From an uncultured Saprospirales bacterium (GTDB lineage: Bacteria; Bacteroidota; Bacteroidia; Chitinophagales; Saprospiraceae), in assembly GCA_913061325.1 (NCBI GenBank), contig CAJXUU010000011.1, forward strand, positions 1 to 38,307: DNA of 38,307 nucleotides, given 5' to 3'. The notes beneath the pieces are model-generated. The model saw nothing but the letters and a program-made list of their open reading frames with translations. It was not told where the DNA came from and did not search any database. The translations under genes were made by a program, and so were the position numbers. This document shows, piece by piece, positions 28,542-31,322 of the stretch. Position 1 is the stretch's first letter. Each line of letters begins with the position of its first letter.

Positions 28542-29759
28542 TCAAATCATACCCAATACTGCCCATATACTCTTCACACCAAGTGCAATTGTCACGACTA
28601 AAATAAATAGTCCAATAATGTTTTGGTAAGTATTATTTCTATGATTTTTCAGAACGGACCTTTTATTTACAATCCATAAAAGAAACCCTGCAATAATAGG
28701 TAATAGCATACCATTGGTAAATTGAGCATATCTAATAATCACTATTGGACTCCAACCAATGCTTGAAAATAATACGCCTATCAGCAAAATAAAGATCCAA
28801 ACTCCTCTGAATGCTCTACTTTTTAGACCCCTGTCCCAATCCAATAGTTCAGTGCACACATAGGCGGCTGCAAGGGGGGCTGTAATGGCTGAAGTCAGAC
28901 CTGCTGCAAATAGACCAATGCCAATCATATATCTTGCTGATTTTCCAAGAAGTGGCTCCAAACTTTGCGCCATACCTAACGCGTTTGTGATAGATAATCC
29001 TTTGCCATGAAGTGATGCTGCAGCTATAATGATCATCAACGATATAAATCCGCCTAAAAAAATAGAAATTATTAAATCTTTTCTGACAACACCTAAATAA
29101 GTACTTCCAGTCCATTTTTCTTTTACCAATGATGCATGGAGAAATAAATTATAAGGCACAACTGTTGTCCCGACTATGCCCATTATCGTTAAAGTACTCT
29201 TTCGGGGCATTGTTGGAATAAACATCCCACTCATAATTTCACTTAATGAAGGCTTGGTCAATATCGCAGCTAATAGAAATGAAATACTCATCAAAATAAC
29301 AATACCTATCAATAATCTCTCGATCAGTTTGTAATTTCCAATGTATAAGATGATAAACGCAAGTGCTCCAACCACAAGACTAAATGGATTGAACCCTAAT
29401 TCTGGTTTATTGATACCTATCGCATCTAACCCCATGACTGCACCAGATAGATTTCCTGCTTCATATGCTGCATTACCTATCACTATGGCTGAAAGGATTA
29501 GAAGGATAGACAAAACTTTTAGTATAGGTTGTTTTATCTCTGTCCGTATGATTTCTGATAGGCCTTTATTCGTGACGAGACCGATCCTTGCTGACATTTC
29601 TTGAAGCACCATGGTTGCAAGAATGGAAAATACCATAGCCCATAAAAGATCGAATCCATGATTGACTCCAGCGGCTACACATACTGTAACTGTACCGGGA
29701 CCTATAAATGCAGCTGCGATCAAGGTGCCGGGGCCTATGTTAGAAATCCATTTGAACAT
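28542..29759 (-). CDS. Nramp-family transporter with non-canonical metal site
   Basis: A 405-residue membrane protein with about 11 helices, of the Nramp (SLC11) family, which normally imports Mn2+ or Fe2+ with protons. The fold is well supported: GPGTLIAAAFIGPGTVTV in helix 1, QEMSARIGLVT after helix 2, and NLFLHASLV after helix 6. The metal-binding DPGN of helix 1 is replaced by GPGT (residues 20-23), so the conserved Asp and Asn are both gone. The MPH of helix 6 is replaced by VPY (201-203). Loss of these residues suggests a different ion, perhaps Mg2+ as in Nramp-related magnesium transporters, or a different mechanism. The family is sure; the substrate is not. Confidence 0.88.
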   Translation of the reverse strand: MFKWISNIGPGTLIAAAFIGPGTVTVCVAAGVNHGFDLLWAMVFSILATMVLQEMSARIGLVTNKGLSEIIRTEIKQPILKVLSILLILSAIVIGNAAYEAGNLSGAVMGLDAIGINKPELGFNPFSLVVGALAFIILYIGNYKLIERLLIGIVILMSISFLLAAILTKPSLSEIMSGMFIPTMPRKSTLTIMGIVGTTVVPYNLFLHASLVKEKWTGSTYLGVVRKDLIISIFLGGFISLMIIIAAASLHGKGLSITNALGMAQSLEPLLGKSARYMIGIGLFAAGLTSAITAPLAAAYVCTELLDWDRGLKSRAFRGVWIFILLIGVLFSSIGWSPIVIIRYAQFTNGMLLPIIAGFLLWIVNKRSVLKNHRNNTYQNIIGLFILVVTIALGVKSIWAVLGMI

Positions 29760-29904: not shown

Positions 29905-31164
29905 CTATTCTTCAAGAACCTGAGGTAGGACAATCACTTTTACAGTTTCAATCTTAGTATCTGATACTTTCTCGAATATAAACCGGTACCCATCCAGATC
30001 AAGCTCATCACCTTGATTTGGAATAGTTTGATGGGTCATAACGATATATCCAGAAAGTGTATGGTATTCCCCTTCTGGGAAATTTATATTCTCATATTTT
30101 TCATTGATCTGACTGACCTCCAATCTACCCGCAAATCTATATTCAGTTTCAGAGATTACTTCATCTGAGTGATCTTCTTCGTCGTATTCATCTTCTATCT
30201 CACCGAATATTTCTTCGAGTATATCTTCAAGTGTGATCAGTCCTGCCGTACCGCCAAATTCGTCCACTACACAAGCGATAGAGGTTCCTTCTTTTATGAA
30301 ATTCATCATCAAATCTTGCACATTCATGGCTTCAGGAATGTAGGTAATTGGCATGATACTTTTCTTAAGATTCTCGGGATTTTTAAGGAGTTGTTGATGA
30401 TGAATATATCCAATAACATTTTCTATATCTCCATCTTTTACTATGATTCTTGATAGTCTGGCTTCTTTGAATGCTTCTAGAAGGTCATCAAGACTGTCTT
30501 TCGCATCAATATGAATGATTTCATTTCTAGGAATCATGCAATCTCTAACCTTTACCTGTTTGAGATTAAGTGCATTGGTTAGAATTTCTTTATCTATAGT
30601 TTCTTCTTCTGATATTGAGTCATTGATATAATGCTCAAGATCTACCTTGGTAAGTACATTTTCAACCTTGTCTGTAGGTATTCTAAAGATAGATTTTAAT
30701 AAAAAGTTGGAAAGACCCGTCATAATAGAAGCTGGGATCATCAATACCCACTTTAGAAAACTGAGCGGGTAGCTAAATCTATATAAAATCTCATTTGCAT
30801 ATAGTCTGAAAAGAGTTTTTGGTAGAAATTCTCCAAATATCAATACCACAATGGTAATAATAAGTGTAACTATAATGAGAAGGAATTTCGAGTCCTCAGC
30901 AAATGCAGGGCTCAATAATGGCTCAATCAACTTGGTCATGAAGATTGTAAAGATGACTAAGGAAATATTATTTCCAACCAACATAGTGCTGAGGAACCCT
31001 TTTGGTTTCTCATAGAAGTTGGCAAGGATTCTTCCTCTTTTATCACCTTTGTTTCTCATTACCTCTATACCAAGCTTATTGGCAGAGATGAATGCTATTT
31101 CTGCACCTGAGAAAAAGGCAGATAACAAGAGCGTAAAAATGATTATAATAATAGTTGATAACAT
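29905..31164 (-). CDS. CNNM/CorC (hemolysin-family, GldE-like) membrane protein
   Basis: A 419-residue protein in the usual order: a DUF21 transmembrane domain (residues about 1-190, opening MLSTIIIIIFTLLLSAFFSG and carrying SGAEIAFISANK), a pair of CBS domains (about 205-330; RDCMIPRNEIIHIDA, DEFGGTAGLITLEDILEEIF) and a C-terminal CorC/HlyC transporter-associated domain. Relatives are linked to Mg2+ or Co2+ efflux; in gliding Bacteroidota the related GldE supports gliding and T9SS. The frame opens at a TTG at 31233, but the 23 extra residues do not resemble the family, so the ATG at 31164 is used. It is followed leftward by the Nramp-like gene after 145 bp, a suggestive metal-transport pairing. 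Confidence 0.9.
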   Translation of the reverse strand: MLSTIIIIIFTLLLSAFFSGAEIAFISANKLGIEVMRNKGDKRGRILANFYEKPKGFLSTMLVGNNISLVIFTIFMTKLIEPLLSPAFAEDSKFLLIIVTLIITIVVLIFGEFLPKTLFRLYANEILYRFSYPLSFLKWVLMIPASIMTGLSNFLLKSIFRIPTDKVENVLTKVDLEHYINDSISEEETIDKEILTNALNLKQVKVRDCMIPRNEIIHIDAKDSLDDLLEAFKEARLSRIIVKDGDIENVIGYIHHQQLLKNPENLKKSIMPITYIPEAMNVQDLMMNFIKEGTSIACVVDEFGGTAGLITLEDILEEIFGEIEDEYDEEDHSDEVISETEYRFAGRLEVSQINEKYENINFPEGEYHTLSGYIVMTHQTIPNQGDELDLDGYRFIFEKVSDTKIETVKVIVLPQVLEE

Positions 31165-31322
31165 AGTGCGAATATATGTGTAATAGTTTATTGAATTATA
31201 ATCAAAATAAGGAAAGTGGTTAGTGCAACACAAATATTCTTTGCACTTAGTAGGAGAGTTAAATTTTGATGCCAGTTAAAAGTTAAAAGAATAGCCAATC
31301 AATCAAAATAAAACAACTCCGA

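Follow-up and report, generated by a model that had tools for sequence, protein, structure and literature searches.

What an Nramp-related protein carries once its metal ligands have been replaced is the question raised by an open reading frame in a 38,307-nucleotide stretch of DNA (the window) from an uncultured Saprospirales bacterium. The 405-residue product matches the Pfam Nramp profile (PF01566) with an E value of 1.4e-84 across profile positions 4–356 of 357. In alignments with DraNramp, EleNRMT and canonical relatives, the DPGN motif of TM1 corresponds to G20-P21-G22-T23, and the MPHN motif of TM6 to V201-P202-Y203-N204. The features concerned are:

28542..29759, minus strand: gene for a Nramp-related (PF01566) membrane carrier of the GPGT clade, ATG start, 405 amino acids; substrate predicted.
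29691..29702, minus strand: codons for G20-P21-G22-T23, the unwound TM1 motif found in place of DPGN, placed by alignment.
29451..29465, minus strand: codons for Y99-E100-A101-G102-N103 in TM3, with N103 at the position of canonical E134, placed by alignment.
29148..29159, minus strand: codons for V201-P202-Y203-N204 in TM6, in place of MPHN, placed by alignment.

The original prediction reported both replacements from the letters alone, and the alignment and the full-length match confirm them. The window protein carries no DPGN at any other position; the first GPG (residues 9–11) aligns with the GPG/GPA that opens TM1. Further losses, in DraNramp numbering, are E134 (N103), A227 (T198), E124 (V93) and the TM9 arginines R352 and R353 (A316 and F317). 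Among the E124, D131, E134, R352 and R353 positions, the sole acid kept is at D131, which is E100 here. The protein shares with canonical Nramp/SLC11 transporters (MntH; DraNramp) the full-length PF01566 domain, the helix order, Q378 and the TM8 serine, but differs in lacking DPGN, MPH, E134 and the TM9 arginines, and in belonging to a separate clade. The single substitution D56G is reported to leave DraNramp with no Mn2+ import (PMC13060092), in agreement with the earlier expectations that a normal Mn/Fe site is precluded and that the cargo is probably a different one.

The gene is intact, and the motif is neither a chance occurrence nor a sequencing slip: it is carried by 62 relatives in the phylum and by same-genus copies that are 90% and 68% identical to the window protein. 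A search of 296 Bacteroidota genomes, cut at E ≤ 1e-50, supplied the 62 relatives, which were read by tblastn without selection on the motif; motif counts are taken from this reading since an earlier conservation table of 73 distinct sequences had been picked partly by the motif itself. Residues G20, P21, G22, N103, T198, T199, V201, Y203, N204, Q346 and N349 are each present in all 62, and T23 in 61 (GPGT), the remaining one reading GPGS; G20, N103 and V201 occupy the DraNramp positions D56, E134 and M230. E100 is found in 56 relatives and is Q in six, while P202 is found in 53, with T in eight and A in one. Fifty-five positions are conserved in 95% or more of the relatives, and not one of them holds D, E, K, R or H, so that a bare divalent cation would meet no conserved acid. 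An AlphaFold2 prediction (two sequences) gave a mean pLDDT of 37, and the model was unusable.

A phylogeny separates the GPGT clade from canonical Nramps, Mg2+ NRMTs and YcsG/PxpT-like proteins. The unrooted tree contains 82 proteins, after removal of a partial row, an odd one and a near-duplicate, from a classified Nramp-related set that leaves out some weak PF01566 matches. The window protein sits in a GPGT group of 28 rows (support 99/96), composed of a 19-row subgroup that includes five haloarchaeal proteins and a 9-row subgroup. The 15 canonical rows form one group without the window protein (100/100), the three NRMT-like rows form their own (100/99), and the GTGS (14 rows, 100/100) and GxSH (15 rows, 100/99) groups are both separate. 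Four YcsG-like, pxpA-linked plasmid proteins form a further clade (100/100) on a long branch. The tree gives no firm branching order for these groups. The nearest relatives found outside Bacteroidota are on haloarchaeal plasmids, at 44–50% identity. A contig scan yielded a single relative, with 91% identity over its best segment; in the tree it is identical to the copy in the same-genus genome G002 and is thus not independent of it.

Magnesium had been named as a candidate cargo, and by sequence the best match among solved structures is indeed the Mg2+ transporter EleNRMT (PDB 7qia; E 1.9e-32), which, like the window protein, lacks M, N and H as metal ligands and carries T at the A227 position (T198 here). 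However, the NRMT signature is described as DxxG-TxxA/T (PMC8806188), and the site here reads GxxT-TxxV, lacking the D and G of the first half and the A/T of the second. NRMTs keep the TM1 aspartate, and EleNRMT has a TM3 glutamate; the window protein has neither, and it lies outside the NRMT rows in the tree. That the protein carries Mg2+ as NRMTs do is therefore highly improbable, and the reading was discarded on site signature and tree. By the same motif and tree tests the protein is predicted to be neither a canonical Nramp nor an NRMT.

The gene is flanked by a CNNM/CorC gene, which had also been read as a divalent-metal clue, and by a 256-residue ORF without a Pfam match. That clue proved weak: across 15 loci read from relatives, a CNNM match beside the gene recurs in just the two from the window's own genus and is not retained outside it. 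The CNNM/CorC protein itself (29905–31233) has GldE (gliding motility) as its best NCBIfam match, at 204 bits versus a cut-off of 376.

A different neighbourhood emerges among the relatives. The genes pxpA-pxpB-pxpC directly follow the carrier gene in L083, L085, L087, L088 and L091 (whose four genes include pxpA and the Pfam domains CT_C_D and CT_A_B), representing 5/12 loci, the window counted, in the part of its subclade for which at least 12 kb per locus was read. In the related locus L094, pxpA alone follows. No pxp genes directly follow in L082, L084, L086, L089, L090, L092, L093, L095 or L096, and in the window's own genus (window, L090 and L092) neither a pxp nor a hyu gene lies beside the gene. 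Across the phylum, PxpA is encoded within 10 kb in 30/62 genomes, always downstream on the same strand and with a match-to-match gap of at most 32 bp in 28 of the 30; Hydantoinase_B lies within 10 kb in 14/62, on the same strand in 13. One or the other is linked in 44/62 genomes, and linkage within 10 kb is absent in 18, including all nine with V[TA]YN in TM6. On haloarchaeal plasmids, HyuA begins at the next base after the gene and is followed by HyuB in four of the five examined, a count that leaves out one more listed match (H5). In L039, a fused HyuAB ORF of 1243 residues lies 8 nt upstream of the GPGT gene. PxpABC and the HyuA/HyuB proteins with their fusion belong to different sequence families with a common presumed reaction, and the linkage of the relatives to 5-oxoprolinase genes points to an organic substrate.

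Several other genes were observed at these loci. A DUF2891 protein (L091:7725-8882) is encoded directly before the GPGT gene in nine genomes, identified by Pfam in L091 and by phmmer in L085, L087, L175, L183, L185, L186, L187 and L202; it is also found near a fused HyuAB in L109, a locus without a GPGT gene, and perhaps performs a step before uptake. The lone Nramp-related protein of L096 (genome G017) reads FGPGS in TM1, and after it come two same-strand ORFs of 338 and 349 residues that resemble metabolic enzymes by eye.

The enzymes and the carrier also co-occur. In a first sample of 60 genomes, PxpA or Hydantoinase_B is found in 23/24 genomes that carry a GPGT-type gene (in three of the 24, a partial gene or one cut by a contig end) versus 3/36 without (Fisher p 2.5e-12), and the exception, G025, carries a PxpC-type gene. 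In the second sample, the 296 Bacteroidota genomes with completeness of at least 90%, the figures are 62/62 with a GPGT-clade protein versus 39/234 without (p 2.7e-37), the latter including G009 despite its partial GPGT-clade gene. Of the 62 positive genomes, 61 are absent from the first sample and had no part in forming the idea. The cut at E ≤ 1e-50 was picked after the listing had been viewed, and the pre-set cut of 1e-40 gives 63/66; the four rows between the thresholds (G135, G154, G217 and G323) all have an NRMT-like site with D, and G217 carries Hydantoinase_B. As the 62 genomes fall in 12 families and close relatives are not independent, the number of independent events is smaller than 62.

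Controls with other members of the superfamily show how far co-occurrence can be taken. Genomes with a canonical gene carry an enzyme in 3/11 cases, all three of which also have a GPGT gene, and in 0/8 cases without one; for GxSH the count is 4/15. For GTGS it is 12/12 (p 7e-6), a warning that co-occurrence can reflect general metabolic breadth. Because the GTGS group also co-occurs, co-occurrence was dropped as the only proof, and linkage is the specific evidence. Among loci L032–L071 (mostly 6–10 kb), no PxpA or Hyu match is present in any GTGS, GxSH or canonical locus; the GPGT locus L039 alone has one. The canonical MntH proteins of relatives (L003–L008, L010 and L012) are 619–655 residues long, about 200 beyond the Nramp domain, and are thus probably fused to a further domain.

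Given the linkage, the co-occurrence, the three enzyme architectures, the site changes and the precedent of PxpT described below, the window protein is probably a LeuT-fold carrier of an organic acid, with 5-oxo-L-proline (pyroglutamate), or else a closely similar cyclic amide (a hydantoin, for example), as the most likely substrate. The substrate, the direction of import and the activity of the partner enzymes are predictions from sequence. The central site of a Nramp-related secondary carrier would have switched from a metal to a small organic acid; the carrier would bring this acid through the inner membrane into the cytoplasm, where an ATP-dependent 5-oxoprolinase, in relatives PxpABC, separate HyuA and HyuB or fused HyuAB, would open the ring to yield glutamate. 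In APC-type amino-acid carriers, the unwound stretch of TM1 binds the substrate carboxylate, and the unwound GxG-T/S stretch may do so here. Na+ coupling through the conserved TM8 residues S290 and T293 is a speculative addition. As counterpoints, the gene is unlinked to pxp genes in the window's genus, and in L165 (genome G130) an ORF that resembles a TRAP large permease by eye (L165:6267-7589), directly upstream of GPGT-HyuA-HyuB, is another possible importer.

The precedent comes from Corynebacterium glutamicum, in which PxpT, a distant relative from the Nramp family and 50% identical to YcsG, is reported to be required for growth on 5-oxoproline, with growth restored by pxpT complementation (PMC13274462). 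Bacillus subtilis YcsG has been renamed MntG as a Mn2+ importer by authors who doubt the earlier 5-oxoproline evidence for it (PMC10448178). PxpT/YcsG (MntG) represents the G-motif 3 group of Ray, Berry and Gaudet, for which the pxpA-linked plasmid proteins stand in our tree. Like the window protein, these have G at D56, N at E134 and Y at H232, and like many GPGT-clade relatives they are linked to 5-oxoprolinase genes, but they differ in reading GPGF in TM1 and VGGY in TM6 and in forming a separate clade. The operon arrangement of PxpT/YcsG is matched, within 10 kb, by the 44 linked phylum relatives and not by the window locus itself. The window protein appears to resemble PxpT in context, yet falls outside the YcsG-like clade sampled. 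The Slc11 orphan outgroup of Cellier (PMC10606218), compared by its described motifs alone, is similar in having a Y–N pair at a spacing of four residues in helix 3, a V and a Y in helix 6, and T at the A228 site; the description consulted names no substrate for it.

The window's own genome complicates the picture. In this assembly (94.8% complete), the window protein is the single PF01566 match, and neither a canonical MntH nor a FeoB_C match was found, leaving its Fe/Mn importer unaccounted for. As the genome has no Hydantoinase_B match, PxpA was sought there and found: contig C342 carries pxpA together with pxpB, the latter truncated where the contig stops. A search of this genome for PxpC (PF02626) gave no match, so that the 5-oxoprolinase pathway is incomplete in the assembly; PxpC is present in the same-genus genomes G002 and G003.

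These observations bear on two other readings. The protein could be an importer of Mn2+ or another divalent metal with an altered site, placed beside 5-oxoprolinases since the enzymes or their regulon need metal. Overexpression of YcsG (MntG), whose gene shares an operon with pxpABC, is reported to raise cellular Mn, and MntR to bind that gene (PMC10448178); MumT of Acinetobacter baumannii, in a urea-carboxylase operon, is reported to support Mn uptake (PMC5050338). The missing alternatives in the window's own genome and the adjoining CNNM gene agree with this reading, and a metal role confined to that genome, with its incomplete pathway, may exist. Yet a site without a conserved acid, in which G20, N103 and V201 are invariant and E100 gives way to Q in six relatives, is hard to reconcile with metal, as is the end of Mn2+ import in DraNramp upon D56G (PMC13060092). 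The NRMT-like proteins of the phylum sample retain D in 4/4, and canonical Nramp genes show no linkage to these enzymes in the genomes examined: both enzymes are absent from the eight that have a canonical gene but lack a GPGT one. A metal importer is therefore unlikely. Alternatively, the cargo may be an organic solute other than 5-oxoproline or hydantoin, perhaps after the unlinked gene of the window's genus shifted in substrate. Enzymes of the HyuA/HyuB family take several substrates, and another Nramp-related group, GTGS, lies near uronate and alginate genes. All three same-genus loci lack an adjoining pxp or hyu gene, but G000, G002 and G003 all have PxpA, the motif residues are unchanged, and the genus is nested in a subclade with linked members, which make such a solute an unlikely cargo. 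What stands of the original prediction is a lost Mn/Fe site and a probably different cargo; its Mg2+ proposal is not supported, and the relatives point instead to an organic substrate.

In the GTGS group, named for its TM1 sequence, 6/12 loci (L032, L034, L035, L041, L043 and L045) lie at most two genes from Pfam-identified uronate or alginate genes, namely alginate lyase, KDPG aldolase, PfkB kinase or mannonate dehydratase. These proteins may carry uronates. In a figure legend of PMC6431674, a "Nramp, metal-ion transporter" is marked in Alteromonas alginate clusters.

Recent work, like public annotation, takes Nramp-related proteins as metal transporters, and a preprint labels its wider alignment as "likely metal transporters" (PMC13060092). 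A figure legend in another preprint (PMC12873925) describes Nramp-related proteins beyond the NRMT-like and MntG groups as entirely uncharacterised, and our search of titles and abstract openings in a limited collection returned no paper on the GPGT clade. The clade-wide genomic link to 5-oxoprolinases provides a concrete organic substrate candidate for one Nramp-related group, and bears on the dispute over YcsG (Mn2+ versus 5-oxoproline) and on the origin of metal selectivity in the superfamily. A broader possibility, somewhat less likely than not, is that metal transport represents one specialised application of the Nramp fold and that several Nramp-related clades are organic-acid carriers, with GPGT proteins assigned to 5-oxoproline or cyclic amides, YcsG/PxpT to 5-oxoproline and GTGS to uronates. 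If so, thousands of proteins annotated as carriers of divalent metals may bear the wrong name, and the site for Mn2+/Fe2+ may derive from one for organic substrates.
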